Origin: Mesorhizobium sp. 65-26
GTDB lineage: Bacteria; Pseudomonadota; Alphaproteobacteria; Rhizobiales; Rhizobiaceae
Length of the DNA: 64,000 nucleotides
Direction of reading: 5' to 3'
NCBI GenBank assembly: GCA_001899205.1
Contig: MKVL01000023.1
Location: 1-64,000, forward strand
The translations under genes and the position numbers were made by a program. Each line of letters opens with the position of its first letter. Position 1 is the first letter of the stretch. This document shows positions 1,938 to 18,906 of the stretch, in pieces. The notes beneath the pieces are model-generated. The model saw only the letters and a program-made list of their open reading frames with translations. It had not been told where the DNA came from and ran no database searches.

Positions 1938-2390
1938 CTATTTGCCGTCCGTACCGGCGGCAAGCAGCGAACCGACACGGCGCAGCGCAAGCTGGTAGCC
2001 CTCCGTGCCGCAGCCGACGATCACGCCGTCAGCCCGCAGCGACACATAGGAATGGTGGCGGAAGCTCTCGCGCTTGTGGATGTTGGAGATGTGGACCTCG
2101 ATGACCGGCCCTTCGAAGGCATTGAGCGCGTCGAGGATGGCCAGCGACGTATGGGTGAAGGCACCAGCGTTGATGATGATGGCCGAGCCGATATCGCGCG
2201 CCTCGTGGATCCAGTCGATCAGCTCATATTCGCGGTTGCTCTGCAGGAAACGGACCTGCAGCCCGAGCCTGGCGGCAAGCTCGTGGCATTCGCGCTCGAC
2301 GTCGGCCAGCGTTTGGTGGCCGTAGATCTGCGGCTGCCGCTTGCCGAGAAGATTGAGGTTGGGGCCGTTGAGAACATAGACCGGATGCAT
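1938..2390 (-). CDS. aroQ: Type II 3-dehydroquinate dehydratase
   Basis: A 150-aa type II dehydroquinase that interconverts 3-dehydroquinate and 3-dehydroshikimate in the cytoplasm. Family landmarks are present: [15 protein letters not shown] with the catalytic Arg and Tyr, [10 protein letters not shown], and [14 protein letters not shown] with the active-site His. The ATG at 2390 was chosen because an AAGGAGGA ribosome site sits just upstream and because the protein then begins at the usual [11 protein letters not shown]; the longer open frame to 2708 has no family match. Between a class III aminotransferase and quiC, in a TRAP-transporter operon, it is probably the catabolic enzyme rather than the only biosynthetic one. 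Confidence 0.9.
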
Positions 2391-2457
2391 CGGATCCTCC
2401 TTTTCAGACGCCTGTCGAATGTCCCCGGTCATGGCCGGAGCCACGGCACCGGCTCGA

Positions 2458-3717
2458 TCAATCCCGCCGGCTGTTTGTCGCCATGCGCCCGGCCGCCTGG
2501 CGAAACGCGCCGGCGCACAGGTCGAGCGCTTCCCGGTCGTGGCTGGCCGAGAGGTAGTAGCGGCCATAGGTGGTGGCCATCGACATGACCCCTGCCCGCC
2601 GCAGCTCCAGGTGAAGGTCGACGGTGAAGACCGGATCGACGATTGCCGCCGCCTCCTTGTAATTGGCGGGGGCCCGCGGGCCACGCCACAGCGTGAACAC
2701 GGTGCCATAGCCGCTGGTGCAGGTTTCGATGCCCTGCTCGGCGAAGCCCTTGACGACGTCCGCGCGCAGCGTCTCGCCGCGCGCGGCGATCGCCGCGTAG
2801 TCGACCTTGTCGACCAGCGCCATAGACGACTTCACGGCAGCGCAGGCGACCGGGTTTCCATTGTAGGTGCCGGCGCGGTTGACGCGCTGATCCTCGAAGG
2901 CCGCCATGACCTCGGGCGTGCCTATGAGCGCGGCGACGGCGATGCCGTTGCCGATCGCCTTGCCCACCGTCGCCAGGTCTGGCCTGACGCCGAGATGGTG
3001 GCTGGCGAGGCCCGGATGCAGGCGAAAGCCCATCAGCACCTCGTCCATGATGACGATGGCGCCGTGGCGCCGCGCGACCGCAGCGACATGGGCGAGATAG
3101 CCTTCGGCGGCCAGGATGCATCCGGCATTGGCCATCATCGGCTCGAGGATCACCGCCGCTATGTCGTCGCACTCGTTGAACATGAGGTCGACGTCGCCGA
3201 AATCGTTGAAGCGCAGCAGCATCGTCTCGTTCTTGACCGGACGCGCGTTGGTCCGCATCTCCGCTTCGCGCGAGCCGGCATTGCCGAACGCCACGTCGTC
3301 GAACCAGCCATCATAGCCGGCGGCCATCTTGGCGATCCGGCCGCGCCCGGTAACGGCTCGCGCCAGCCGGCAGGCGAGATGCACGGCCTCGCTGCCGGAA
3401 TTGACGAAGATCACCTTGCTGAGGTCGCCGGTATGGGCGGCAAGGCTTGCCGCCGCCTCTTCCTCGAGCGCGTGGGCATAGGCGGGCATGGAGCCGCGCT
3501 CCAGCGCCGCCTTGGTGGCCTCGATCACTTCCGGCGCGGAATGGCCGAGGAAGGTCGCGCCGAAGCCCAGCGCGGTGTCGACATAGCGCCGGCCGTGATC
3601 GTCCCAGACATACGGGCCCTGTGCCCGCTGGACGAGGAAACGCCGTCCGTCGAGATCGGGCACGGCGCGGCCGCCGCTGGAAATCCCACAAACTACATGC
3701 TGCATGTCACACCCCAA
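2458..3717 (-). CDS. Class III PLP aminotransferase, glutamate-1-semialdehyde aminomutase-like
   Basis: This 419-aa PLP enzyme resembles glutamate-1-semialdehyde 2,1-aminomutase and other class III transaminases. Visible motifs are [12 protein letters not shown] (phosphate binding), [11 protein letters not shown] (the DEV cofactor site), TVGKAIGNG with the Schiff-base Lys, and [12 protein letters not shown]. The start overlaps the dctM stop by 11 bp, so the genes are probably translationally coupled. A haem role is unlikely here because the neighbours are a TRAP carboxylate transporter and quinate/shikimate enzymes; an amino or keto compound of that pathway is a more natural substrate, but this is inference. 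Met5 is an alternative start. Confidence 0.8.
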
Positions 3718-4993
3718 GGAGCCTGGGCAACCATTCGGTAAGGCCCGGGAAGGCCACCAGCGCCGCCACGCAGATGACGCTGGCGATCCAGTACGGTACC
3801 AGCCAGACGGAGACCGACCACATGTCGAGCTTCGCCACGTTGCAGACGACGAAGATGTTCGTGCCGATCGGCGGCGTGAACAGCCCGATGCCCAGCGTCA
3901 TGGTGAAGACGATGCCGGTCTGGTACGGCGTCATGCCCGCCGACAAGGCGATCGGAACCAGGATCGGCGCCAGGATGATCAGCGCCGGCCCGAGATCGAG
4001 CCAAAAGCCGACGATCTTGAGCAGCAGGAGCACCAGGATGATCGTGACGATCGGCGAGGTGTCGAGGCCCGTTATCCAGGCGGCGGCATTCGCCGGCACC
4101 TGCTCGACCGTCAGGATCCAGCCGAACGGGGTGGCGAGCGCCATGATCATCATGATCACGCCCGTGGTCGCCACCGCCGACGAGGCGGCGGCGTAGAGCG
4201 AACGCAGCGGCAGCTCCCGGTAGACCAGGATGCCGGCCAGGAACGAGTAGACCACGGCGAGCGCGGAGGCCTCCGTGGCGGTCGCGATACCGCCTATGAT
4301 CGAGCCCAGCACCAAGAGCGGCATCAGCAGCGCCGGCAGCGCGCCGACCGCGTCGCGGCCGATCTCGCCCCAGCTCGCCGGATCCTCGTTGCGCGGGAAG
4401 CCGTGGCGCTTGGCCACGACGTAGGAAGTGATCATGAAGATCGCCGCGATGAACGCGCCGGGCACCAGCGCCGCGACCAGAAGCCCGCCGATCGACGTGT
4501 TGGTCAGCACGCCGTAAAGGATCAGGATGACGCTCTGCGGCCCGATGATGCCCAGCGTGCCGGCAGCGGCGGTCACCGCGGCCGCGAAGGCCTTGGGATA
4601 GCCGCGCTGGGCCATTGCCGGGATCATGATCGAGCCCACGGCGCCGGTGTCGGCGGTGGCCGAACCGCTGATGCCGCCATAGACCAGCGCCGTCGCCACG
4701 TTGACCAGGCCGAGGCCGCCGGTGATGCGCCCGAATATATGCTCGGCAACGCGCATGATGCGCCTGGTGAGGCCGCCGCGGTTCATCAGTTCGCCGGCGA
4801 ACAGGAACAGCGGAATGGCGGCGAGCGTGATGGCGTCGGCGCCACGGATGGTCTGCTGCGCGAACCACGCCGCCGGCAGGTTGAGATGGCCCAGATAGAT
4901 GGCAAGCAGGCTCGCCACGCCCATGCACCAGGCGATCGGCACGCCGATGAGGAGCAGTATGGAGAAGCTGACGAGAAGGATCGCGATGGTCAT
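3707..4993 (-). CDS. dctM: TRAP transporter large permease, DctM
   Basis: A 428-aa, very hydrophobic inner-membrane protein of the TRAP DctM family, the ion-coupled channel subunit that imports organic acids delivered by the periplasmic protein. It begins MTIAILLVSFSILLLIGVPI and has roughly 12 membrane segments with typical DctM motifs (LFAGELMNRGG, GAVGSIMIPAMAQRGY, FTPPIGTNIFV). The ATG at 4993 overlaps the dctQ stop as ATGA. The longer frame upstream to 5353 is rejected because it would lie inside dctQ. Confidence 0.92.
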   Translation of the reverse strand: MTIAILLVSFSILLLIGVPIAWCMGVASLLAIYLGHLNLPAAWFAQQTIRGADAITLAAIPLFLFAGELMNRGGLTRRIMRVAEHIFGRITGGLGLVNVATALVYGGISGSATADTGAVGSIMIPAMAQRGYPKAFAAAVTAAAGTLGIIGPQSVILILYGVLTNTSIGGLLVAALVPGAFIAAIFMITSYVVAKRHGFPRNEDPASWGEIGRDAVGALPALLMPLLVLGSIIGGIATATEASALAVVYSFLAGILVYRELPLRSLYAAASSAVATTGVIMMIMALATPFGWILTVEQVPANAAAWITGLDTSPIVTIILVLLLLKIVGFWLDLGPALIILAPILVPIALSAGMTPYQTGIVFTMTLGIGLFTPPIGTNIFVVCNVAKLDMWSVSVWLVPYWIASVICVAALVAFPGLTEWLPRLLGV

Positions 4994-5502
4994 TGCCGCG
5001 CCTCCGCCTCGACCTGGCCCCGGCCCAACATGCGCCAGGCGCGGGAGATGGCGATGGCAACCGCCGAGACGCCGAGAATGATGACGGTGACGGTGATGAC
5101 GCCGGTCGGCAGGCGCAGCACCGAGGTCGGCACCATCCAGGAGCGCTGCCAGACCGCGATGCCACTGACCAGGAAGGCGATGCCCATGACAAGCAGCGCA
5201 AGGATCGCGACCGCGTCGAAGATGGCCTTCAGCCTGGGAGGCGAGGCTTGGTTGAGCGCCTCGAAGGCGACGTTCTCGCCCCGCATCTCGGCATTGATGA
5301 GACCGATGAAGGTGATCCAGATGAAGGCGATGCCGGCGACCTCGAACGACCATTCGACGCCGCCGAACTCGAAGAAGCGGGCGATGACACCGAGCAAGGT
5401 CGAGCCGAACATCACCAGGAAGGCGATGACGCCGACGAACTCGAAGACGCGCGCCAAGCCCCCCCGCCTGGCGGGAGGGGGTGTTTCGGTAAGGGAGTCC
5501 AT
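4990..5502 (-). CDS. dctQ: TRAP transporter small permease, DctQ
   Basis: A 170-aa membrane protein with four predicted hydrophobic segments, the small DctQ subunit that pairs with DctM. A family hallmark is WITFIGLINAEMRGENVAFEAL in the middle, split across the second and third helices. The start MDSLTETPP at 5502 fits the family length better than the frame extension to 5565, which would run into the end of dctP. It lies 11 bp after dctP and overlaps dctM by 4 bp, completing a three-gene P-Q-M set. Confidence 0.9.
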   Translation of the reverse strand: MDSLTETPPPARRGGLARVFEFVGVIAFLVMFGSTLLGVIARFFEFGGVEWSFEVAGIAFIWITFIGLINAEMRGENVAFEALNQASPPRLKAIFDAVAILALLVMGIAFLVSGIAVWQRSWMVPTSVLRLPTGVITVTVIILGVSAVAIAISRAWRMLGRGQVEAEARQ

Positions 5503-5513
5503 CGGGATCCGCC

Positions 5514-6506
5514 TCAGTTGGCCGACGCGGCTTTCTGGACCGTCGAGACGAGGTCCGCGCCCCATTCCTTCGAGAACTGGTCGTAGACCGGCTTCACGAG
5601 GTCGACGAACGGAGCGGTGTCGACCTTGGTCACGGTCACGCCCTTGGTTTCAAGCGCCTTCTGCGTGTCCTCATAGGCCTTGCTCAGCTCGCCACGATAC
5701 CAGTTCACGGTGTCGCCCGCCGCCTTCTGCACGGCGGCCTGCTCGTCGGGCGTCAGCGCGTCGAAACGATCCTTGTTCATGAACCACCAGTTGGCGGTCC
5801 AGATGTAGTTGGAGATCGAAAGGTGCTTGGCCACCTCGTACCATTTGGAATCGTAGTAGTCGCGCATCTCCGGCTCGACCGCCGCCACGACATGCGACTG
5901 CAAAGCCGTGTAGACCTGGCCGAAGGGGATGGACTCGGCCAGCGCGCCAAGCTGCTTCATGGTCGACAGGATGACCGGGTTCGGCGGCGTCCGGATCTTC
6001 ACGCCGGCAAGGTCGGCCGGCTTCTCGATCGGCTTGTTGGTGGCGAACTGGCGGAAGCCCGAATCGAGCGCGCCGAGCATCAGATAGCCGCGATCGGTCC
6101 CGAAATGCTGGATCTTCCGGCCTTCCTCGCTGTCGAGGAACTTGTGCACATTGTCGGCGTCCTTGAACAGGAACGGCAGCGACAGGACGTTGAGGCGCGG
6201 ATCGATCGCGTCCACCGCGCCGCCCAGGCCGATGTCGATCGCGCCAGCGCCAACGCCATCGGCGATCGGGCCTTCATCGCCCAGCTGGCCGTTCGGGAAG
6301 ATCTGCACGACGACCGATCCCTTGGTCTGCTCCTTGACCTCGGCGGCGAATTTCTCGACCGCCTTGTTGATCAGGCTGTCCGGAGAGGATGCATGCGCCA
6401 GCCGCAGCGTGGTCTCGGCCAGGGCGGAGCCGGCAAAGATGCAGGCGGCCGCAACGCCCCCCAACAGGGCGGCTACGACGTTGAATTTGCTCGTTTTCCG
6501 CAACAT
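5514..6506 (-). CDS. dctP: TRAP transporter substrate-binding protein, DctP
   Basis: A 330-aa periplasmic solute receptor. Residues 1-30 are a Sec signal peptide with a likely cleavage after SALA. The mature protein carries DctP-family signatures: the start ETTLRLAHASSPDSL, PNGQLGDEGP, the Arg that clamps the ligand carboxylate in GVKIRTPPNPV, and PFGQVYTALQ. It is the first gene of the operon and is followed by dctQ, dctM, an aminotransferase, aroQ and quiC, so its ligand is probably a quinate-, shikimate- or related hydroxy-acid. The start at 6506 was chosen for the signal peptide; upstream codons to 6953 run antisense through the lysR gene. Confidence 0.92.
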   Translation of the reverse strand: MLRKTSKFNVVAALLGGVAAACIFAGSALAETTLRLAHASSPDSLINKAVEKFAAEVKEQTKGSVVVQIFPNGQLGDEGPIADGVGAGAIDIGLGGAVDAIDPRLNVLSLPFLFKDADNVHKFLDSEEGRKIQHFGTDRGYLMLGALDSGFRQFATNKPIEKPADLAGVKIRTPPNPVILSTMKQLGALAESIPFGQVYTALQSHVVAAVEPEMRDYYDSKWYEVAKHLSISNYIWTANWWFMNKDRFDALTPDEQAAVQKAAGDTVNWYRGELSKAYEDTQKALETKGVTVTKVDTAPFVDLVKPVYDQFSKEWGADLVSTVQKAASAN

Positions 6507-6585
6507 GGGTTCCCCTTTTTTCGATTGCGTGTTTTTACGAGCCGCAACAATAGCTATAAGGTTGGGGCGGAAAATGAGAGATTTC

Positions 6586-6599
6586 TTATTCTTGCATAA
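6586..6599. promoter_or_regulatory. Candidate LysR-type operator between dctP and lysR
   Basis: The divergent gap of 154 bp contains the dyad TTAT-N6-ATAA, close to the T-N11-A pattern of LysR-family operators. A TATAGCTATTG sequence read on the minus strand at about 6548-6558 could supply a -10 box for dctP. Position and symmetry support a control site for both directions, but the dyad is short and AT-rich and could be chance. Confidence 0.35.
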
Positions 6600-6660
6600 A
6601 GGCTGCTGATCCCTGCCTCTTCGGCGGGACAAGAGGCCGTTGCCTGGAGCGGAAAGCGAA

Positions 6661-7569
6661 ATGCGGAACCTCGACAGCGATGCGTTGGCGGCCTTTCTCG
6701 CGGTCGCGGAAACCGGAAGCTTCACCATGGCGGCCGAGAGGCTCGGCCGCACCCAGGCCGCCGTCAGCATGGCGATCGCCAAATGGGAAGAGAAGCTCGA
6801 CGTGCGCCTGTTCGACAGGGCGCATCGCCGCGTCTCGCTGACGCCGATGGGGCAAAGGCTGCTCGAATACGCCCGCAGGATCCGCGCCATAGAGGACGAG
6901 GCGCTCGCCGTGCTTTTGGAAGGCCGCAACGAGAGCCGGGTGCGGCTCGGCATGCCGGACGACTATCTCGTGCTGTTCGGAACCGCGCTGATCGAACGTT
7001 TCGTGCCGCAATACCCCCGGGTCAACCTCGACCTGCAATACGACTTCTCGCATCGGCTGGAGCACATGGTCGAAAGCCGCGAACTCGACATCGCCATCAT
7101 CACGCAGAGTGCGGCGGAACCGAAGGGCGAAGTGATCCGCATCGAAAAGCAGGTCTGGTGTTCGGCCCCGCATCGCCGGCCTGAGACCGCGAGTTGCCTG
7201 CAGCTGGCGTTGTTTCCGGATGGCTGCAGGGCCCGGCCGCATATCCTGTCGGCCCTCGATCGCGCCGATCGGCGCTGGCGGGTCGTCTATTCCTCGACCG
7301 ACATCGCCGGAATCCGGCTGGCTGTCGCGTCGGGCGAGATGCTGACGGTGCTTCCCGAATGCGCGGTGCCGTCGGACTGGCGGCGGCTCGGCCCGAACGA
7401 GGGCATGCCGGAGCTTCCGGACCTGCGCCTGGCGATGATCCTGCCGCAGCAGCCGCGCCTGCCGGTGCGCCAGCTCGCCGCTTTCCTGAGGACGGAGTTC
7501 CAGCGCCTGTTGCCGCGCACCGGGGCCGACTTGCTACCGGTCGACCAGGCCGCCGGCGAAGTGGCCTGA
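6661..7569 (+). CDS. LysR-family regulator, probable control of the TRAP/quinate operon
   Basis: A 302-aa LysR regulator. Residues 1-60 form the winged helix-turn-helix (SFTMAAERLGRTQAAVSMAI), followed by the co-inducer domain. The ATG at 6661 gives the usual LysR beginning MRNLDSDALAAFLAVAETGS; an in-frame TTG at 6640 would only add seven residues. It is divergent from dctP, so the natural hypothesis is that it activates the TRAP-quiC operon in response to a pathway intermediate. The C-terminal domain looks slightly compressed around residues 165-190, but total length is normal. Confidence 0.88.
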   Translation: MRNLDSDALAAFLAVAETGSFTMAAERLGRTQAAVSMAIAKWEEKLDVRLFDRAHRRVSLTPMGQRLLEYARRIRAIEDEALAVLLEGRNESRVRLGMPDDYLVLFGTALIERFVPQYPRVNLDLQYDFSHRLEHMVESRELDIAIITQSAAEPKGEVIRIEKQVWCSAPHRRPETASCLQLALFPDGCRARPHILSALDRADRRWRVVYSSTDIAGIRLAVASGEMLTVLPECAVPSDWRRLGPNEGMPELPDLRLAMILPQQPRLPVRQLAAFLRTEFQRLLPRTGADLLPVDQAAGEVA

Positions 7570-8430: not shown

Positions 8431-9219
8431 TCAGGACGAAAGCTGGCGAACGAACTCGCTCGCTGTCATGCCGCTCAGCGCGTGGATTTCGCGACTGAGA
8501 TGGGCCTGGTCGGCATAGCCCGTCGCATAGGCCAGCGCGGCCAGCCCGGCATTGTCCTTGCGCCGCGCCGCCGAGAGCACCTTCTGGAAGCGCAGGATAC
8601 GATCGAGCGTCTTCGGGCCGTAGCCGAACAGATGATGGCAGCGCCGGCGCAGCGTCCTTTCGCTGAGCTCCAGGCTGCGCCTGAGCCGCATAAGTCCCGC
8701 CCCCTCCGCGCCCGCCGTGCCTTGCAGCGTCTCGAACATCGCGGCGCCTTCGCGATCCGGCGCCTCAATCGAAGCCGCCATCCGAGCCAGCATCCGCTGC
8801 AACAAGACGGCCTGTTCCCCGATGCCCGCCGTCTCGGCCAGTTGGTCGGCCATCTCGACAGCCCTGCGGCCCCAGATGTCGGGCAGCCCGACCGCGCTGC
8901 CGACGATCTCGTCCAGCGGCAGGCCGAGCCACCGCGCGGCCGCGCCAGGTCGGAAACGCAAGCCGAGAACCGTCGTGCCTGGACGAAGATCCGGATGGGC
9001 GGCCGTGACGTCGGGACCGACCACGGCAAGGCCGCCCTCATGCCAGAGAAGGTCGACGCAGCCATCGGGGACCACGGCGATCGTCGCGGTGTGATCTTCG
9101 GGAATGCGATGCGTCCATACGCACAGGAAATGCGCGCCGAGCGGTGCGGCCGGCGCCGCTTCGGCGTAGCGCCCGACCCTGCTGGCGAGAACCGTTTCTG
9201 CCTTACGCTCCAGGCTCAT
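8431..9219 (-). CDS. AraC-family transcriptional regulator
   Basis: A 262-aa regulator. The N-terminal half (about 1-150) is the sensor type seen in AraC proteins with a conserved PDGCVDLLW motif, and the C-terminal 100 residues form the double helix-turn-helix, with SERTLRRRCHHLFGYGPKTL in the first unit and ATGYADQAHLSREIHALSG in the second. It leads a probable unit with the VOC and DoxX genes and lies 13 bp after the stop of the hotdog-TetR gene, so some read-through from that gene is possible. Effector unknown. Confidence 0.85.
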   Translation of the reverse strand: MSLERKAETVLASRVGRYAEAAPAAPLGAHFLCVWTHRIPEDHTATIAVVPDGCVDLLWHEGGLAVVGPDVTAAHPDLRPGTTVLGLRFRPGAAARWLGLPLDEIVGSAVGLPDIWGRRAVEMADQLAETAGIGEQAVLLQRMLARMAASIEAPDREGAAMFETLQGTAGAEGAGLMRLRRSLELSERTLRRRCHHLFGYGPKTLDRILRFQKVLSAARRKDNAGLAALAYATGYADQAHLSREIHALSGMTASEFVRQLSS

Positions 9220-9232
9220 GTCGCTGCCCGGG

Positions 9233-10276
9233 CTACGATGATCTCAGGCTGCGGATGACGAGTTCAAATATTTCGTCGCGAAACATCTGCTGGCCGAATT
9301 TTCCCACGGCAAATTGGCGCAACGACCACATATCGCAGGCAGCTTCGATGAAATTGGCCGCGATCTCCGGTTCAACCGGCCTGAATTCGCCGGCTTCCGT
9401 TCCCTCCGACACCAGTTCGGCGATCTGGAACAGCAGCTTGCGATAGTCTTCCAGAACACGCGCCCTCGCCTCGCGCGACAGAGATTTGAACTCGCGGTTC
9501 AGAACGCCGACGCTGTGGCGAAAGCGGTCGCCCTTGTCTATCAGCGAGGCGATGGTGGCGCGAAGCTTCTCCGTTGCCGTGTGACAGTCGACCGTTGCTT
9601 CCGCCACGTCGGTGCGCACCCTGGCCATCGTCCAATAATAGACCAGTTCCAGCATCTCGTCCTTGCTCGCCACGTACTGATACATGGTGGGCACGTGCAT
9701 GCCTGCGGTATCGGCGATCTCGCGCATGGTCGCCTTGCCAAATCCCTTGCGCGCGATCACTTCGGAGGCCGCCGCCGCGATCTGCTCACGGCGCTTGTCG
9801 GCAGTCGTCGCCGGCTCGATTTCGCGGGCCTCGGCGCCCGAGCCCCGTGAGTGGCCTGTTTCCTCGCCGCCGTTCGGCCTTTCGCCCGGATCTGCGGCAG
9901 GCGACTCGGAGGCAGCAATGCCGCAACTTACCGAAATCTCCGAAACCCGCTTGCCGCCTTCATCTTGAATCGTCACCCGCCAATTGGCTGTCGTCTCGGT
10001 CGCGTGCAACAGGACCGCTTCTCCCTGCAGGGTACCAACCGGCTCACGGACAAAAATCCTCGCATGGCAGTCGGTTTCCTCAACCGCCTGGGAGGACGCC
10101 AGCGCGAGCATGGTTCCCGTTCTGGCGAGTTGAACGGCGAAGCCGGTCAGAATCCCCAACAGCGAACCGCCCGAACCGCTCATCGTGGCGGTGAAGAGAC
10201 CCACGACCTTGTCCGGGCTCGCCGACGCGATCGTAAGGTCCCGCGTCTGGCTGGGAGCCGGTCCTGACTGCCTCAT
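9233..10276 (-). CDS. Hotdog-like domain fused to TetR-family DNA-binding domain
   Basis: A 347-aa protein with an unusual layout. Residues about 15-118 resemble a PaaI-type hotdog fold (a GG turn, a long helix, then FVREPVGTLQGEAVLLHATE and WRVTIQDEGGKRVSEISVS). Residues 119-158 are a charged, disordered linker. Residues 160-210 are a clear TetR helix-turn-helix (KATMREIADTAGMHVPTMYQ) with an all-helical ligand domain to 347. The start at 10276 has a GGGGGAG ribosome site; the upstream Met at 10363 lacks one. It is divergent from an acyl-CoA operon that contains its own PaaI thioesterase, suggesting acyl-CoA sensing by the hotdog part. The hotdog assignment comes from pattern only. Confidence 0.78.
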   Translation of the reverse strand: MRQSGPAPSQTRDLTIASASPDKVVGLFTATMSGSGGSLLGILTGFAVQLARTGTMLALASSQAVEETDCHARIFVREPVGTLQGEAVLLHATETTANWRVTIQDEGGKRVSEISVSCGIAASESPAADPGERPNGGEETGHSRGSGAEAREIEPATTADKRREQIAAAASEVIARKGFGKATMREIADTAGMHVPTMYQYVASKDEMLELVYYWTMARVRTDVAEATVDCHTATEKLRATIASLIDKGDRFRHSVGVLNREFKSLSREARARVLEDYRKLLFQIAELVSEGTEAGEFRPVEPEIAANFIEAACDMWSLRQFAVGKFGQQMFRDEIFELVIRSLRSS

Positions 10277-10374
10277 ATTTTCTCCCCCGACTGGCTCGGC
10301 GCAACGCTGTCCTAAAATATTTGAAAAAAAGGGCAAGCCAATCGCTTGACTAAAAACCGTCATTCAAGCTTCAT

Positions 10375-10390
10375 TACTGAACGCTCAGTA
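10375..10390. promoter_or_regulatory. Perfect palindrome, probable TetR operator
   Basis: TACTGA-ACGC-TCAGTA is a perfect 16-bp inverted repeat in the 157-bp gap between the hotdog-TetR gene and the ABC operon. TetR-family operators are commonly palindromes of this length. A CTTGAC hexamer at 10345-10350 could be the -35 box for the rightward operon; binding here would then block initiation, or leader transcription, ahead of the start at 10434. Confidence 0.6.
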
Positions 10391-10433: not shown

Positions 10434-11675
10434 ATGTCGTGGAGAATAGAACGGCTCGGAGGGTGGGCCGCCGTGTCCGCCATCGCTTTCGTGGTATCGG
10501 GACATGGCGCTAGCGCGGAGTCGCTTGACCTGAAGATCGGCGCGCTGCTTGAAGCATCCGGCCCCTTGTCCGAAATCGGGCCGCCGGCCGAAAAGGCTAC
10601 CAACCTGGCCGCTGAAGTCGCCAACAAGGCTGCCAAGGATGCAGGCGCGACCATCAAGGTGGGTGTCGTCACCGCCGACGCGCAGGGAGATCCGCAGGCT
10701 GCCCTTTCGGCGGCGCGCACCCTTGTCGACAAGGGTGCCTCCTGCATTCTGGGACCGGGCACCACGCCGGAATCGATCTCCGTGCTCAATGGCATAACCA
10801 TGCAGCGCAAGATCACGCTCTGGCCGCTCGCATCCAGCACCAGGCTGCGCACCGTCAAGGACGACGGCACGATCTACCGCACCGTGGCCGCCGACGATCT
10901 CCAGTCGAAAGCGCTGGTGCAGGCAATCGAAAATCACGTCGGCAAGGGCAAGTCCGTCGCGATCGTGTTCCGCAACGAGCCCTACGGCGATGCCCTCTCG
11001 AAGAGCTTCACCACGGATTGGAAAGCAACCGGCGGTACGATTACGACGACCGTGTCGTTCGATCCCCAGCAGCAGAGCTTCGATTCCGAGGCCGGCCAGG
11101 TCGTGGCTGACAATCCCGATGCCTATGTGGTCATCGACTATCCGGAAACCTACGCCAAGTTCGGCGCAGCGCTGGTGCGGACCGGAAAGTTCGATGCAAA
11201 GAAGGTCTTCGTGGCGGATGCGTTGTCCTTCGCCAATGTTCCGGAGAACATCCCGGCAGAAGCGCTCGAGGGAGCCTATGGCGTCGCCGGCGGCTCGCCG
11301 ACCGGCACCGAAACCTACAAGCTGTTCAACAAGTTGTGGGATGAGGCAGGCGGCGTGGCCAACGCTTCCTATACCGCCAACACCTTCGATGCCGGCATCC
11401 TTTGCTTCCTCGCGGCCGTGCAGGCGGGTTCGACCGAGCCCGGCGCCATCCGCGACAAGATACGCTCGGTCACGCAGGACGGAGCGCCACAATTCACCAT
11501 CGCAAACCTTTCCGAGGCCGTGAAAGCGGCAGAGACTGGCAAGCCCATCGACTATGTCGGCGTCTCAGGCCTGTTCCGGTTCAAGGACAATGGCGACCCG
11601 TCGACCAGCCTCTACGACGTCTTCCAGTATAAGGGCGGCAAGCAGGTCAAGGTCGAACAGGTGAACGTGAAGTAA
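10434..11675 (+). CDS. Liv-type ABC transporter substrate-binding protein
   Basis: A 413-aa periplasmic binding protein of the branched-chain amino acid/amide type (Peripla_BP_6). It has a signal peptide with cleavage near GASA, then DLKIGALLEASGPLSEIGPP, the ligand-pocket region LVDKGASCILGPGTTPES, and a C-terminal QYKGGKQVKVEQV. The ATG at 10434 has ACGGAG 7 bp upstream and is preferred over the in-frame TTG at 10428. It opens the nine-gene operon; given the downstream CoA ligase and thioesterase, the ligand is more likely an aromatic or aliphatic carboxylate than an amino acid. Confidence 0.9.
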   Translation: MSWRIERLGGWAAVSAIAFVVSGHGASAESLDLKIGALLEASGPLSEIGPPAEKATNLAAEVANKAAKDAGATIKVGVVTADAQGDPQAALSAARTLVDKGASCILGPGTTPESISVLNGITMQRKITLWPLASSTRLRTVKDDGTIYRTVAADDLQSKALVQAIENHVGKGKSVAIVFRNEPYGDALSKSFTTDWKATGGTITTTVSFDPQQQSFDSEAGQVVADNPDAYVVIDYPETYAKFGAALVRTGKFDAKKVFVADALSFANVPENIPAEALEGAYGVAGGSPTGTETYKLFNKLWDEAGGVANASYTANTFDAGILCFLAAVQAGSTEPGAIRDKIRSVTQDGAPQFTIANLSEAVKAAETGKPIDYVGVSGLFRFKDNGDPSTSLYDVFQYKGGKQVKVEQVNVK

Positions 11676-12694
11676 TGTCGGCAACGCCCACTGTACGAGC
11701 CTCGGCGGCGGAAGATGATGCTTCCGCCGTCCGTTCCCGCCTGGCGAGCCCATCACGGCTGACCGTTCTGGTTGCCGTGATGGCTGTCGTGTTTTGCCTG
11801 CTGGCCGCACTCTTCGGGCTGGTCCCAACGGCGCAGGCAACGATCAACGGTTTCGTGGCCGGCAGCTATACCGGGCTTGGCGCGATCGGGCTCACGCTCG
11901 TGCTGGGAATTCTCAAACTGGTGAACTTCGCGCATGGCGACCTGCTTGTCGCCGGCGCCTATTTCACCATCCTCTTCGCCTGGCTTGGGCTGCCCCTGCC
12001 GCTTGCCATGCTCGGCGCGATGGTTGCGACGGCGGCACTCGCCCTCGTGACGGAAAAAATCGTCTGGCAACCTCTGCGGCAGGCCAAGGCCGGCACCCTG
12101 CAACTCTTTCTGTCCGCCATCGGGCTCGGACTTGTCATCCGTTTCTCGGTCCAGTTCTTCGCCGGCAGCCAGGTCCGGACGCTCGGCGCGAATGTGGTGG
12201 ATTCGATTGCGCTCGGCCCGCTTCGTCTCGGCACGTTGCAGGCTGTGGCGTTGCTGGTCGGCCTGGCGGCGATGCTCCTGGTGGGACTGGCTCTGCGTTT
12301 CACCGGCATCGGCAAGGAAATGCGCGCCTTTGCCGACAACCGCGCCCTGGCTGAAGTATCGGGCATCGACACCCAGCATGTCATCAACATGACCTGGATC
12401 GTTTCAGGCTTTCTGGCCGGGCTTGCTGGCATCCTCTATGCGACCGCCATCGGCAGCTTCAATCCCAATTTCGGCCTGACGCTGCTGCTCAGCCTGTTCG
12501 CGGCCACGGTCCTCGGCGGCATTGGCAATGCCTATGGCGCGCTAGTCGGCGGACTGGTCATCGGCCTTTCGCAGGAATGGTCGACCCTGATGTTCAACGC
12601 GCGCTGGAAACCCGCTGTCGGATTCGCGTTGCTCATCCTGATGCTGCTGTTCATGCCGCAAGGCATCTTCGGTCGAAAGAAGCGCGGATCATGA
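11675..12694 (+). CDS. livH: ABC transporter permease, LivH type
   Basis: A 339-aa inner-membrane permease of the LivH family. After a roughly 45-residue Ala/Ser-rich extension and first helix, it shows the LivH core GLGAIGLTLVLGILKLVNFAHGD and the C-terminal AATVLGGIGNAYGALVGGL. About eight to nine membrane helices are apparent. Its ATG overlaps the stop of the binding protein (TAATG) and its stop overlaps livM (ATGA), so the genes are translationally coupled. The N-terminal extension is longer than in classical LivH. Confidence 0.9.
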   Translation: MSATPTVRASAAEDDASAVRSRLASPSRLTVLVAVMAVVFCLLAALFGLVPTAQATINGFVAGSYTGLGAIGLTLVLGILKLVNFAHGDLLVAGAYFTILFAWLGLPLPLAMLGAMVATAALALVTEKIVWQPLRQAKAGTLQLFLSAIGLGLVIRFSVQFFAGSQVRTLGANVVDSIALGPLRLGTLQAVALLVGLAAMLLVGLALRFTGIGKEMRAFADNRALAEVSGIDTQHVINMTWIVSGFLAGLAGILYATAIGSFNPNFGLTLLLSLFAATVLGGIGNAYGALVGGLVIGLSQEWSTLMFNARWKPAVGFALLILMLLFMPQGIFGRKKRGS

Positions 12695-13617
12695 GCGTCG
12701 ATTTCTGGATCAATGTCGGCGTTCTCGCCGGCATCTACGGCATTTTCACGCTCGGGCTGCAGCTCAACGCCGGCTTCACCGGATTGCTCAACTTCGGTCA
12801 GGCTGGCTTCATGGCAATCGGCGCCTACAGCATCGGCATCCTCGTCGTCGACCATGGCTGGTCGCTCTGGCTGGCCCTTCCGGCGGCGGTCCTGCTTGCC
12901 TGCCTGGCCAGCGTGGTGGTCGGCATATCCTCGCTTCGGCTGCGCTCCGACCATTTCGCCATTGCCACGATCGCATTTGCCGAGATCGTTCGCTACACGC
13001 TGCAGAACGCCGCTTTCTCCGGCGGCAATCAAGGCATTCTGGGCTTCGACGACGAATGGCGCGCGGCCTCCGGCTGGATGCTCTCGAAGCTCGGCGCGTT
13101 CGGTCTCGGCGGCTATACGCAACTGCCGCTTTTGCTCGTCGTGTGGCTGAGCTTTGTCGCGTTGCTGTTGGCCTTGCAGGGCCTGCAGCGGACCGGCTGG
13201 GGCCGCGTCCTGCGAGCCATCCGCGAGGATGAGGACGCCACCGCCGCACTCGGCAAGAACGTTCTCTCCTACAAGCTGCAGTCGCTCGGCCTTGCCGCGG
13301 CATTGGCGGCGATCGCCGGCTTCTTCGTGGCGCTCAATGTCACCTATCTCTATCCGACCGTCTTCGATCCGACCTTCACCTTCTTCGGCTATGCAATTCT
13401 GGTGCTTGGCGGGTTCGCCAGCTATGGCGGCGTGGCGATCGGCAGCCTTGTGTTCTGGGCCCTGCTGGAAGGCACGAGGCTGATCGATGCATCTCTGTCG
13501 GCGGGACAGCAGGCCTCGCTGCGCTTCATCATCGTCGGCCTGTTTCTGCTTTTGCTCAGCCGCCTCCGGCCACAGGGCCTGCTCGGCAATGTCAACGAGA
13601 TGAAGGTGAGGCCATGA
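12691..13617 (+). CDS. livM: ABC transporter permease, LivM type
   Basis: A 308-aa membrane protein, partner of LivH. It begins MSVDFWINVGVLAGIYGIF and includes LNAGFTGLLNFGQAGFMAIGAY, the SLRLRSDHFAIATIAFAEI segment, and WGRVLRAIREDEDATAALGK, all typical of LivM. The start at 12691 overlaps the livH stop by 4 bp; the longer frame from 12577 is out of place inside livH. It overlaps livG by ATGA. Confidence 0.92.
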   Translation: MSVDFWINVGVLAGIYGIFTLGLQLNAGFTGLLNFGQAGFMAIGAYSIGILVVDHGWSLWLALPAAVLLACLASVVVGISSLRLRSDHFAIATIAFAEIVRYTLQNAAFSGGNQGILGFDDEWRAASGWMLSKLGAFGLGGYTQLPLLLVVWLSFVALLLALQGLQRTGWGRVLRAIREDEDATAALGKNVLSYKLQSLGLAAALAAIAGFFVALNVTYLYPTVFDPTFTFFGYAILVLGGFASYGGVAIGSLVFWALLEGTRLIDASLSAGQQASLRFIIVGLFLLLLSRLRPQGLLGNVNEMKVRP

Positions 13618-14398
13618 CCGCCGAACCGATCCTGGAAGTCGCCAATGCCGTCAAATCCTTTGACGGGTTGACAGCGGTGGCCGGTGCAAGCTTCACCGTG
13701 GAGAAGGGTTCCATCACCGCCTTGATCGGCCCCAACGGGGCCGGCAAGACGACAATGTTCGACTTGCTCAGCGGCTTCGCGAAGCCTGATTCCGGAGCGA
13801 TCCGCTTCGCCGGCCAACCAATCACCGGCAAGGCCCCGCACAGGATCGCGCGGCTTGGCCTTGTGCGCACCTTCCAGTTGACGCGCGTTCTGGCTGGCAT
13901 GTCGGTGATCGACAACATGCTGCTTGCGGCGCCTCGCCAGCCTGGCCAACACCTGTATTCCCTGCTGACGGCGCCGCGCCACGCCAACGCGGCCGAAGAC
14001 AAGGCACGCGACGCGGCCCTGTCCCTGCTCGAAACTTTCGGCCTGCGATCCAAGGCGGCGGACTATGCCGGCGCATTGTCGGGGGGCCAGCGCAAACTCC
14101 TGGAGATAGCGCGGGCGCTGATGACCGAACCCTCGATGGTGCTGCTCGATGAGCCCATGGCCGGGGTCAATCCGACGCTTGGACACACCATTCTCGACCA
14201 CATCGCGTCGCTGCGTCAAAGCAACGGCACGTCGTTCCTGTTCGTCGAGCACGACATGGACGTGGTGATGAACCGTGCCGACCGCATCGTCGTCATGGCG
14301 CAGGGGCGCGTCATCTCCATGGGCACGCCGGAGCAGATCCGTGCCGATGCCGCCGTGATCGAGGCCTATCTCGGCGGCCCGGCCCCGGAGGCGAAGCC

Positions 14399-14402
<4 letters not shown>
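13614..14402 (+). CDS. livG: ABC transporter ATP-binding protein, LivG type
   Basis: A 262-aa ATPase. Walker A is GPNGAGKTT (about residues 37-45), the signature is LSGGQRKLLEIARAL, and Walker B is MVLLDEPMAGVNP. The family-specific RLGLVRTFQLTRVLAGMSVIDNM segment follows Walker A, and the usual LivG C-terminal extension ends IEAYLGG. It works with LivF to energise the LivHM channel. Overlaps of 4 bp on both sides indicate tight coupling. Confidence 0.93.
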
Positions 14403-15116
<714 letters not shown>

Positions 15117-15124
<8 letters not shown>

Positions 15125-15536
15125 TGCGCCGATAGGCGACTTCGATACGTTGGACGCGATGGTGCGCGACTGTCCGTTCCACCGCTGGCTGGGCGTATCG
15201 CTGAAATCAATGTCCGGGGACAGCGTCGAGATCCTGCTGCCCTGGCGCGAGGAGTTCGTTTCGGATCCCGAGGTCCGCTACACACACGGCGGCATTCTCG
15301 CCGCGCTCATCGATCTTGCCGCCGACTACGCGATCGCCGCCCGGATCGGGCGCGGCGTTCCGACCGTCGACATGCGCGTGGACTATCACCGTGCCGCCCT
15401 GCCCGGGCCGCTGGTCGCGCGGGCCAGCGTCATCAAGCTCGGCGGCACGCTGGCGACCGCCGAAGCGCATGTTTTCGACGAAAACGACAAACTCGTCGCA
15501 AGCGGACGCGGCGTCTATCTCACGCTGACCCGTTGA
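15117..15536 (+). CDS. PaaI-type hotdog thioesterase
   Basis: A 139-aa single hotdog domain of the PaaI/YdiI type, which hydrolyses acyl- or aryl-CoA thioesters. The key region is RYTHGGILAALIDLAADYA, with the HGG turn before the central helix, followed by the strand VDMRVDYHRAALPGPLVARA. The ATG at 15117 has GGAGG upstream and overlaps livF. A probable role is rescue of CoA from trapped thioesters formed by the ligase two genes downstream. The regulator at the other end of the locus carries a similar-looking fold. Confidence 0.88.
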
Positions 15537-15557: not shown

Positions 15558-16184
15558 ATGGGCGTCGAACTCGACCACATCCTCTGGGCCTCACCGGATC
15601 TCGATATCGGGTCCTCCCTGATCGGCAAGCTCACTGGCGTCGAACCAACCCGGGGCGGTTCGCATCAGGGGTTCGGGACGCGCAACAGCTTGCTCGGGCT
15701 CGGCAACATCTATCTGGAAATCATCTCGCCGGATCCCGCCCAATCGCTGGAGGGCAATCGTGGCGGCCAGATTGCCGCACTGGCCAGGCCAGGTCTCGCC
15801 ACCTTTGCCGTCCGCACCACCGATCTTGGTGCCTATGCGGCGGCGGCGAAACGGGCCGGCGTGGGCACGACAGGACCGGTGGAGATGGGACGCACACGCC
15901 CGGACGGCGTGCGTCTCGATTGGGCTTGCCTCTATGTGACGCATCCTGTCTTCGGCGAGATCATTCCTTTCGCCATCGACTGGAAAGCATCGCCGCATCC
16001 GTCGGCGACAACGCCCGACGGCGGCAGGCTGAAGGAATTCACGGTCCTTCATCCGCGAGCCGAAGAACTCGCCGGCATCTATCGTGAGATGGGCATCGAC
16101 ATCCCCGTGCGGATCGCCGCCACGCCGGGTTTCCTCGCGGTTCTCGACACGCCGCGCGGAGAGCTCGTCCTCACCTCGCCCTGA
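15558..16184 (+). CDS. VOC/glyoxalase-like domain protein
   Basis: A 208-aa protein with a glyoxalase-like fold: VELDHILWASPDLD at the N-terminus, GLGNIYLEIISPDPAQS, and an ending GFLAVLDTPRGELVLTS. It resembles the larger glyoxalase-like domain proteins (PF13468 type) rather than the short VOC enzymes. No catalytic assignment is possible. It is 21 bp after the thioesterase gene with AAAGGA in the gap, so it belongs to the operon and may act on a pathway intermediate. Confidence 0.78.
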   Translation: MGVELDHILWASPDLDIGSSLIGKLTGVEPTRGGSHQGFGTRNSLLGLGNIYLEIISPDPAQSLEGNRGGQIAALARPGLATFAVRTTDLGAYAAAAKRAGVGTTGPVEMGRTRPDGVRLDWACLYVTHPVFGEIIPFAIDWKASPHPSATTPDGGRLKEFTVLHPRAEELAGIYREMGIDIPVRIAATPGFLAVLDTPRGELVLTSP

Positions 16185-16220: not shown

Positions 16221-17789
16221 ATGCCAATCACCGCCGAAAATCCCCGCTGGAACAATCTGGGCTACTGGAACCACGACGCCGCCAGCCTCTACCCCGACAA
16301 CATCGCCATCATCGACCTTGCGCGAGAAAAGCCCCGCAATGTGCTCTACCGCGAACTGGAAGACCGTCTCGACCGCGTGGCGCGTCTGCTGATCGACAGC
16401 GGCCTGAGATCAGGCGACCGGTTGGCGCTTTCCGTCAGCAATCGTTTTGAATTCGTCGAGATTTTCTTCGGCGCCATGCGCGCCGGCATCGTGCCGGTTC
16501 CACTCAACACCAAGCTCGGCACGGAAACGCTAGAATACATCATGCGCGATGCCGGCTGCGTCGGCGCGGTGGTGGAGGATGCGGCCAACCCGCATGTCGC
16601 GGCACTGGCCGACCGGATCGGCTGCAAGGTGAAGATCAGCCTGGACGCCGCGAAAGCCGGTTGGCAGGATTACGAGACGACACTCGCCGCGGCCAGGCCC
16701 GGGTTTCAGCCAACGCGGCTGGCCGACGATCATCCCTCTTTCCAGCCCTATACGTCAGGTTCGACGGGACGGCCCAAGGGGGTGGTTCTGACCCATGCGG
16801 GCCAGTGCTGGTGGCTTCGCTGCCTGCAGAAATACTGGCCGGGCCTGCCCGAGCACCGGGCGCTCGCAGCCGTTCCGCTTTATCACAAGAATGCCATGGC
16901 GGGCGCGATCAAGCCGTTCCTGAGCTGGGGCGGTTCGGTTGTGCTTTTGCCGAACTTCGAGCCACGGCGCTTCCTGCATACGCTGTCGGATTATCGGTGC
17001 ACGCACGCTGGCGCCGTGCCCGCGGTATTCACCTTGCTTCTGCAGGAGCGCGACCTGATCGATACGCTCGATTTTTCGGCGCTCAAAAGCCTGAAGATCG
17101 GGTCGGCGCCGACACCCAAGGAACTGCTGGACGCGGTCGAGGCGGCTTTCGGCGTCGCCGCGTCCGAAAGCTATGGCCTGACCGAAGGCGGCCCGGTCAT
17201 GATCGGCACGCCGACAGACGGTCGTCCAGTGCCGCACGGCAGTTGCGGTGTCGTCTGGCCCGAAGGCGAGGTGAAGCTCATCGACGCCGATGGCAATGAG
17301 CATCTCTCCTATGGCGAACTCTGGGTGCGCAATCCCGGCGTCACGCCGGGCTACTGGAACCTGCCGGAGGTCAATGCGGTTCGGCTGAAGGATGGCTGGC
17401 TGAGCACGGGCGACGTGTTCTCACGCGACGACGACGGCTTCTTCTATTTCCGCGGCCGCACCGACGACATGTTCAACTCGGGTGGCGAGAACGTCTATCC
17501 GCTCGAAGTGGAGAACATGCTTCTGCGCAATCCCGCTGTCGCCGAAGCATCCGTGGTGCCCATAGCCCACCGCATCAAGGGCGAAGTCCCCGTTGCGATG
17601 GTGGTCAAGGCGAAAGGCCGGGACGTCACGGAAGAAGAACTCAAGCAGTTCTGCCTGTCGGTCGGGCCTGCCTATGCCCACCCGCGCCGCATCGTCTTCG
17701 TCGAGGAACTGCCGCTCAACGGACCAGGCAAGATTGATCGCAAGGTCGTGCAACGGCTGATGCGGGAGCGCTTCGGCACGGTGGGTTGA
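16221..17789 (+). CDS. Acyl-CoA ligase (ANL superfamily)
   Basis: A 522-aa adenylate-forming enzyme that should activate a carboxylic acid to its CoA thioester with ATP. Core motifs are YTSGSTGRPKGVV (P-loop), ESYGLTEGG, the hinge region STGDVFSRDDDGFFYFRGR, and GPGKIDRK with the catalytic Lys near the C-terminus. The ATG at 16221 is used; a TTG at 16191 is in frame but lacks a ribosome site. The set of transporter, ligase, thioesterase and oxidoreductase suggests degradation of an imported aromatic, cyclic or fatty acid. Confidence 0.9.
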   Translation: MPITAENPRWNNLGYWNHDAASLYPDNIAIIDLAREKPRNVLYRELEDRLDRVARLLIDSGLRSGDRLALSVSNRFEFVEIFFGAMRAGIVPVPLNTKLGTETLEYIMRDAGCVGAVVEDAANPHVAALADRIGCKVKISLDAAKAGWQDYETTLAAARPGFQPTRLADDHPSFQPYTSGSTGRPKGVVLTHAGQCWWLRCLQKYWPGLPEHRALAAVPLYHKNAMAGAIKPFLSWGGSVVLLPNFEPRRFLHTLSDYRCTHAGAVPAVFTLLLQERDLIDTLDFSALKSLKIGSAPTPKELLDAVEAAFGVAASESYGLTEGGPVMIGTPTDGRPVPHGSCGVVWPEGEVKLIDADGNEHLSYGELWVRNPGVTPGYWNLPEVNAVRLKDGWLSTGDVFSRDDDGFFYFRGRTDDMFNSGGENVYPLEVENMLLRNPAVAEASVVPIAHRIKGEVPVAMVVKAKGRDVTEEELKQFCLSVGPAYAHPRRIVFVEELPLNGPGKIDRKVVQRLMRERFGTVG

Positions 17790-17892: not shown

Positions 17893-18906
17893 ATGCGCGC
17901 CGTCGTAACCTATCAACATGGTGGTCTGGATCAGATGATCTACGAGCCCGCCTACCGCGATCCGGTCCCCGGCCCGGGAGATGTGATCTTGCGGGTGCGC
18001 GCCTGCACGCTCAACTATCATGATGTCTTCACCCGAAAGGGCATGCCCGGCATCAAGATCCCGATGCCGCTGATCATGGGCATCGATGTCGCCGGCGAGG
18101 TGGTGGAGACCGGTGCCGACGTCGTCGGCATTTCCGTGGGTCAACGCGTTCTCGTCGATCCGATCGACCGCGTCGATGGCGGGCTGCTCGGAGAGACCTT
18201 TGACGGTGGCCTTGCCGAACTGGTTCGCGTCCCCGCGCATATGATCGTGCCGCTCCCCGACGATGTCAGCTTCGCGCAGGCGGCGGCCCTGCCGGTGGCC
18301 TATGGGACGGCCTATCGAATGATGATGACGCGCGGCAAGATCCAGCCGGGCGAGAAGGTCCTGATCCTCGGCGCCTCAGGCGGCGTCGGAACCTGTTGCG
18401 TCCAACTGGCCAAGCAGGCGGGCGCGACCGTGATCGCCTGCGCCTCGAGTGACGACAAGCTTGAGCGTCTGAAGGAACTCGGTGCCGACTACGGCATCAA
18501 CTACGCCACGGAGGACTGGGTGGCCGAATGTCGCAAACGTTTCGGCAGGGCCCGCGTCTCGCAAAAGGACGAAGGCGGCATCGATGTCGTGGTCAACTTC
18601 ACCGGTGGCGATACCTGGGTGCCGTCGCTGCGCGTCATGCGTCGGGACGGCAGGCTTCTGACCTGCGGCGCCACGGCGGGTTACGATCCGCATGAAGATC
18701 TGCGCCTCATCTGGACGTTCGAACTGAACATCGTCGGTTCGAACGGCTGGTCTCGCGACGACGTTCTGGCGCTTCTCGATCTGGTCAAGACCGGCAAGCT
18801 AGAACCGGCTCTCCATCCTGAGCGGTTCTCTGTCGAGAACGCCGCCAATGCCATGCGCCTGCTCGACGAGAGGCGGGTTTACGGCAAGGTCGTCATCGAA
18901 CCATGA
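17893..18906 (+). CDS. MDR-superfamily oxidoreductase (quinone oxidoreductase/alcohol dehydrogenase-like)
   Basis: A 337-aa NAD(P)-dependent medium-chain reductase. It starts MRAVVTYQHGG, has the substrate-domain pieces CTLNYHDVFTRKG and PLIMGIDVAGEV, and the Rossmann motif ILGASGGVGTCCVQLAK. No four-Cys structural zinc loop is visible, which favours the quinone-reductase/enoyl-reductase branch. ATG at 17893 follows GGAG; a TTG at 17881 is possible. It follows the ligase after 103 bp and is the last gene of the operon; the next gene is on the other strand. Confidence 0.85.
   Translation: MRAVVTYQHGGLDQMIYEPAYRDPVPGPGDVILRVRACTLNYHDVFTRKGMPGIKIPMPLIMGIDVAGEVVETGADVVGISVGQRVLVDPIDRVDGGLLGETFDGGLAELVRVPAHMIVPLPDDVSFAQAAALPVAYGTAYRMMMTRGKIQPGEKVLILGASGGVGTCCVQLAKQAGATVIACASSDDKLERLKELGADYGINYATEDWVAECRKRFGRARVSQKDEGGIDVVVNFTGGDTWVPSLRVMRRDGRLLTCGATAGYDPHEDLRLIWTFELNIVGSNGWSRDDVLALLDLVKTGKLEPALHPERFSVENAANAMRLLDERRVYGKVVIEP

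Follow-up and report, generated by a model that had tools for sequence, protein, structure and literature searches.

A predicted hotdog-TetR fusion regulator beside an acyl-CoA ligase cassette in Mesorhizobium sp. 65-26

FapR of the Firmicutes is the nearest precedent for the regulator described here. It joins a helix-turn-helix to a hotdog domain that is related to acyl-CoA thioesterases but not catalytic, and acts as a malonyl-CoA sensor (PMC516016, PMC3536700); SpxR and YtoI, also of the Firmicutes, are DRTGG-CBS-hotdog regulators, the ligand of SpxR being described as unidentified (PMC9888711). The present protein resembles FapR in being a transcription factor with a non-catalytic hotdog and SpxR/YtoI in being a DNA-binding protein with a hotdog domain, and differs from the latter in its DNA-binding and ligand domains. 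In FapR of the Firmicutes a DeoR-like helix-turn-helix lies ahead of the hotdog, whereas here TetR_N follows the hotdog, and the TetR protein behind it is complete, helical ligand domain included; FapR serves lipid synthesis in Gram-positives, whereas the present regulator belongs to Alphaproteobacteria and has an acyl-CoA ligase cassette for a neighbour. No TetR-hotdog fusion was found in the full-text literature searched, a body outside which most subscription papers lie; FapR and SpxR/YtoI were the hotdog regulators encountered there.

YdiI and EntH are stand-alone thioesterases with an HGG...D/E motif. The same is reported for the stand-alone 4HBT-II and PaaI thioesterases, with the PaaI motif given as HGG-x-IF-x-LAD and the 4HBT-II motif as HGGAS-x-ALAE (PMC516016). 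YdiI, EntH, HI1161 and 4HBT-II stand alone and keep the motif, whereas the hotdog considered here is fused and has lost it. The other half of the protein has solved matches in AibR, FadR, KstR2 and FasR, which are TetR regulators of acyl-CoA or steroid metabolism; their matched chains (179-196 residues) are too short for an extra hotdog, whereas the present protein has one.

The DNA analysed (the window) is a stretch of 64,000 nucleotides, in which the following features bear on the regulator:

9233-10276, minus strand: hotdog-TetR fusion regulator, 347 aa (open reading frame, Pfam, AlphaFold2 model, Foldseek)
9917-10237, minus strand: hotdog domain, residues 14-120, HGG-x6-D/E motif lost (model, Foldseek, motif alignment)
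9806-9916, minus strand: charged linker, residues 121-157, pLDDT <50 at 124-154 (model)
9236-9805, minus strand: TetR DNA-binding and ligand domains, residues 158-347 (Pfam, model, Foldseek)
10346-10351, plus strand: TTGACT, a -35-like box conserved in the four LIV-type intergenic regions aligned
10375-10390, no strand assigned: predicted operator TACTGAACGCTCAGTA, palindrome TACTGAACGNTCAGTA (conserved in related loci, single place in own genome)
10434-11675, plus strand: substrate-binding protein, Peripla_BP_6 (Pfam); the frame opens at TTG 10428, with an in-frame ATG at 10434
11675-12694, plus strand: branched-chain amino acid type permease, BPD_transp_2 (Pfam)
12691-13617, plus strand: branched-chain amino acid type permease, BPD_transp_2 (Pfam)
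13614-14402, plus strand: ABC ATPase with BCA_ABC_TP_C tail (Pfam)
14399-15124, plus strand: ABC ATPase (Pfam)
15117-15536, plus strand: separate PaaI-type hotdog thioesterase, HGG...D intact (domain match and motif)
15558-16184, plus strand: Glyoxalase_3 (PF13468) protein (domain match)
16221-17789, plus strand: AMP-forming acyl-CoA ligase (domain match)
17893-18906, plus strand: zinc-type reductase/dehydrogenase (nearest NCBIfam model a PIG3-type quinone oxidoreductase, below cut-off)

The fusion gene is an open frame of 347 codons from the ATG at 10276; an alternative in-frame ATG upstream at 10363 would give 376 aa, and the former is favoured as the start because in two related loci (L033, L041) no start codon of the open frame precedes the ATG aligned with it. 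The protein has the two parts of the TetR family, a helix-turn-helix (TetR_N at residues 165-209, E 1.7e-11, 44.2 bits, cut-off 24) and after it a helical C-terminal domain (TetR_C_24 at residues 232-313, E 3.2e-12, 47.2 bits, cut-off 26.4). Residues 1-159 matched no Pfam hotdog family and gave no 4HBT match; against the NCBIfam model TIGR00369 they gave a weak, sub-threshold match (residues 59-113 to model positions 57-111 of 117, 13.5-15 bits, E 0.02-0.06, cut-off 36.6), so that no curated sequence cut-off of the hotdog superfamily was reached. Within its own genome the N-terminal domain found only itself and one match at E 0.2.

The AlphaFold2 model of the window protein, built from eight homologues (mean pLDDT 79.7, pTM 0.52), shows in its N-terminal half the order E14-20 E23-30 H39-58 E65-74 E81-92 E96-104 E110-120, which is that of a hotdog. 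Ten-residue pLDDT means were 71-93 across residues 11-120, except for 59 at residues 31-40, the motif region, with the model least certain at residues 33-36; confidence is low in the linker at 124-154, and the TetR helices start at 158. In Foldseek searches the two halves matched different solved proteins, thioesterases and TetR regulators respectively. The N-terminal half matched the Arthrobacter 4-hydroxybenzoyl-CoA thioesterase 3r3f/1q4s, a 4HBT-II enzyme (target TM ~0.7), and AziG 5hmb (TM 0.76). The first-ranked matches of the TetR half were AibR with isovaleryl-CoA and B. subtilis FadR, with DarR (c-di-AMP) and HapR scoring nearly as well and KstR2 and FasR at ranks 16 and 39; no solved chain spanned both halves among the 50 matches listed. 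As modelled, the protein begins with a hotdog domain, which a charged and disordered linker joins to a TetR regulator that is complete, as the preliminary description had proposed by eye; neither this model nor the domain order of relatives refutes that description. The hotdog assignment draws on the AlphaFold2 model, the Foldseek matches and those fused relatives that pass sequence cut-offs.

Relatives were sought with 5 candidates scored per genome (order, class and phylum searches), 7 (family) or 14 (genus), so that misses are possible. The family search matched 29 of 297 genomes at 1e-10, four of them (including the own genome) at E 4.4e-49 or better; the other 25 lie at 2.8e-15 or weaker, and their N-termini fall outside the fusion count. 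Five of 397 genomes were listed in the order search, four with the fusion (own, G474, G613, G689) and G683 with TetR-like matches only. The class search listed eight of 385. The protein is fused in own, G1193, G1118 and G927, although the G927 frame is interrupted by a TAA; G935 breaks off where its contig ends, the frames of G1059 and G821 are short, and the long N-domain of G815 is unmatched by any hotdog model. A contig scan yielded seven loci, all of the long architecture, four apparently belonging to genomes that the other searches had found as well. No fused protein besides the own one was found in the 398 genomes of the phylum search, and the plasmid search gave no match at 1e-15. Not counting the window, there are 15 distinct loci (L033-L039, L041, L043, L044, L045, L048, L049, L050, L051), of which 14 are intact and 13 intact with an alignable N-domain (Alphaproteobacteria). 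In L050 (1378-2484, G927) one in-frame TAA falls within the hotdog region, and the frame of L048 from the same genus (G1193) is intact; the stop may mark a pseudogene or a draft error.

How firmly each hotdog is recognised varies. Four of the 15 fused proteins scanned pass the Pfam 4HBT cut-off of 20.6 bits (L038, 31.5; L045, 50.3; L048, 34.1; L049, 41.6) and that of TIGR00369 too; the remaining 11, the window protein included, have no 4HBT match. Sub-threshold hotdog matches only (best E 1.5e-4 to 0.016) were obtained for L033, L041, L043, L044 and the window, and for L034-L037, L039 and L051 neither Pfam nor NCBIfam gave any hotdog match to the N-domain. These missing matches count against the hotdog assignment, as does the hhalign probability of 13% that a profile of four LIV-type domains reached against the cassette PaaI. 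A second model, of L035, has the hotdog strand order; its best 50 Foldseek matches listed were all TetR chains, with no hotdog among them, so that the assignment of L035 is from strand order, and those of L034, L036, L037 and L039 follow from alignment with L035. The L051 N-domain is without any support for a hotdog assignment.

Resemblance to PaaI had also been proposed; the fold is borne out, and the domain is not a copy of the PaaI enzyme of the operon. In the hotdog tree, nine fused domains form one clade (98/98) apart from eight cassette PaaI proteins and three own-genome hotdogs, the tree leaving out the most eroded members (L034-L037, L039, L051) and L050 with its in-frame stop. A Trp common to 14/15 fused and 15/15 stand-alone proteins is missing from 8/8 cassette PaaI proteins. 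A duplicate of the operon PaaI is rejected by the separate clade and the absent Trp. The stand-alone proteins came from the phylum search, in which a profile of eight fused proteins found 15 TetR-less hotdog proteins (frames of 128-202 aa apart from a single one of 299; matches over the hotdog columns at E 8e-26 to 3e-32), none with a TetR gene detected beside it by TetR profile (~1.5 kb each side, less at contig ends). The closest solved sequences to the L045 hotdog are YdiI/EntH/HI1161/4HBT-II-type enzymes, and the window hotdog shares features with the stand-alone YdiI/EntH-like hotdogs; we think that it descended from a stand-alone thioesterase. The TetR and hotdog trees share a general order (L048/L049, L045, L038, then the window group), which would be consistent with one fusion event, though a number of forks are poorly supported (86/59 at the deepest one of the hotdog tree); the label of L052 as hotdog-less in the TetR tree is tentative, since its contig ends there.

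The divergent operon with a PaaI thioesterase and an acyl-CoA ligase, described earlier, is confirmed by the domain matches listed above, and much of it recurs in 15 related stretches (L033-L039 and L055-L062). In 13 of these the regulator has the ligase in its neighbourhood, the exceptions (L059, L061) having contig ends close to the regulator; the Glyoxalase_3 protein occurs in 10, the zinc reductase in 10 and a separate PaaI-type thioesterase in 7, none being detected in the L034, L036 and L037 cassettes, which have the regulator. The transporter type varies: branched-chain in the window (Pfam), L033, L057, L062 and more distantly L038 (similarity); SBP_bac_1 in L035 (Pfam) and L034, L036 and L037 (similarity); SBP_bac_5 in L039; and TRAP in L055 (Pfam) and L056 (58-67% identity). 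In L055 (545-2933) the cassette also encodes a thiolase, an OB_ChsH2_C protein and an enoyl-CoA hydratase, a hint that the cassette acid may follow a beta-oxidation-like route.

The palindrome at 10375-10390, noted in the preliminary description, is real and conserved. At up to 2 mismatches it occurs in 11 of 16 stretches, with a single copy in all but L055, which has two. Every copy immediately precedes either the cassette or the regulator, and this applies to divergent, first and last positions of the regulator alike. Four of these 11 (window, L033, L057, L062) served to define the pattern, leaving seven independent, three of them close relatives; one match was found in 3.2 Mb of Markov control sequence. 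In the others, no site was found within 3 mismatches in L058, L060 and L061, the best site in L056 has 3 mismatches and lies away from the regulator, and the sole site in L059 has 3 mismatches and lies upstream of it. The own genome has no second place at up to 2 mismatches (a reversed control pattern gave 3 + 2 matches), on which ground a wider regulon was rejected. No consensus promoter was found by a promoter scan. Its conservation and placement make the palindrome the likely operator of the window regulator.

Our preferred reading, to which we give a probability of roughly 0.45, is a dedicated local repressor responsive to a CoA thioester, with the inducer read mainly in the TetR pocket and the hotdog a non-catalytic module. 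The regulator probably controls one neighbouring gene set for the use of an acid. Repression from an operator is the usual mode of the TetR family, and the TetR part would bind the palindrome, shut off the divergent transporter/ligase cassette and probably repress its own gene too. The transporter would import the acid and the ligase would convert it to a CoA thioester, the probable inducer. This would be sensed chiefly by the helical pocket of the TetR part, as is the case for AibR and FadR; that these two rank first among the Foldseek matches weakly suggests the helical domain as the likelier reader. The hotdog would add a further dimer interface, a generic CoA-binding site by which the response is tuned, or both; dimerisation is probable for it and CoA binding possible. 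The regulator could offer a CoA-thioester-responsive switch. In favour of this account are the predicted fold and fusion, the lost catalytic residues, the conserved operator-like site, the recurring cassette with its ligase, the shared occurrence of regulator and Glyoxalase_3 marker in the genus, and the constraint on the hotdog (below). Counting against this account, Foldseek order is weak on ligand, with DarR and HapR nearly equal; the excess divergence of hotdog over TetR_C (below) is not uniform among motif-lost pairs; and 5/16 stretches are without the palindrome at up to 2 mismatches.

Between the window and L033, identity is 41% in the hotdog, 21% in the linker, 92% in TetR_N and 72% in TetR_C, and 78-87% in nine cassette proteins; between L033 and L041, a single pair, dN/dS is 0.13, 0.50, 0.01 and 0.04 for the same four regions. 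The ratio of hotdog distance to TetR_C distance is 2.3-3.0 in four window-group pairs, 2.1 in L034/L035, 1.6 in L035/L039, 1.5 in window/L044 and 0.6 in L034/L037; the motif-keeping pair L048/L049 gives 1.5, and deep pairs near saturation 0.7-1.2. From these values the hotdog is judged to be under selection and, in the window group, to drift faster than the rest of the protein. Purifying selection agrees with a second reading, possible if doubtful, in which the dead hotdog would be the main acyl-CoA receptor and release DNA through the linker, the TetR helical domain only dimerising. FapR provides the precedent, having lost catalysis with the fold retained, and the hotdog order is kept in both diverged members modelled (window, L035). 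Because the window and L033 hotdogs are so much less alike than TetR_C and the cassette proteins, however, a conserved specific pocket is disfavoured; five of the eight motif-lost pairs have ratios of 2.1-3.0, and the disordered linker offers no obvious rigid path. The hotdog as a specific sensor is on these comparisons somewhat disfavoured; by analogy with FapR it is still conceivable, and the fast divergence may represent tuning.

The same divergence might be that of a relic, an ancestral thioesterase-regulator fusion decaying until the hotdog here is a tolerated, functionless spacer. Most fused members are without the motif, the window group evolves more quickly, and six N-domains (L034-L037, L039, L051) match no hotdog model any more. 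We consider this quite unlikely: dN/dS is 0.13 for the hotdog in the one pair, all 15 fused proteins cut for the TetR tree keep 120-174 residues ahead of the TetR part, and both proteins modelled still show the hotdog order.

The preferred repressor reading treats the hotdog as non-catalytic, and the motif columns bear on this. The whole HGG...D/E motif is present in 8/8 cassette PaaI proteins, and His and the acid are kept in 15/15 stand-alone proteins, one reading HCG. Among the 15 fused proteins aligned, the motif is whole in L045 (HGG..E) and L049 (HGG..D), and L048 reads YGG..D; L038 keeps His (HEG..G), L035 His and the acid (HPS..E), and the others have no His at this position, the acid column being acidic also in L034-L037, L039 and L051. 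In the window protein the motif is absent: an ungapped reading puts Leu39-Leu40-Gly41...Val48 at its positions, and the gapped alignment has gaps at the first two, with the same Gly and Val. As read from these residues, the window hotdog is dead as an enzyme, and the earlier suggestion that it hydrolyses the pathway acyl-CoA is not supported. A switch reset by hydrolysis of the inducer thioester in the hotdog, for which the motifs of L045, L048 and L049 might speak, is highly improbable here, with Leu39 and Val48 in place of His and the acid and an intact thioesterase in the cassette itself. A related proposal, which we regard as speculative and rather unlikely, is that an acyl-CoA thioesterase was fused to a TetR repressor so that motif-keeping L045, L048 and L049 can sense their inducer and also hydrolyse it, as self-resetting switches, and that in window-like branches the enzyme became purely a binding module; if true, it would mean that hotdog-based transcription sensors arose a second time, independently of FapR. 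Living relatives comprise stand-alone enzyme-like proteins, motif-keeping fusions and motif-lost fusions, motif-keeping L045 having a cassette of the window's kind, and the transition from enzyme to sensor is thereby open to direct test.

That two genes were joined by an assembly or frame error can be practically dismissed and is refuted in our analysis: the regulator was found in just 3/146 genomes of the genus search (the same three as the Glyoxalase_3 marker), yet it lies in one open frame, and the long architecture recurs in 14 other intact loci, 13 of which bear out the proposed domain order with an alignable N-domain.

Directly downstream of the fusion gene lies an AraC-type regulator with DUF6597 (8431-9219, minus strand). 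TRAP-type genes are found nearby in the window at 3704-7569, with a DctP domain in the frame at 5514-6953 (Pfam) and permease genes named by eye, and near them a LysR regulator at 6640-7569. Beside the Halovulum cassette of L039, tandem frames at 2270-3832 and 3972-5534 have equal length (520 aa) and the same visible start, and are perhaps a duplicated mobile element.
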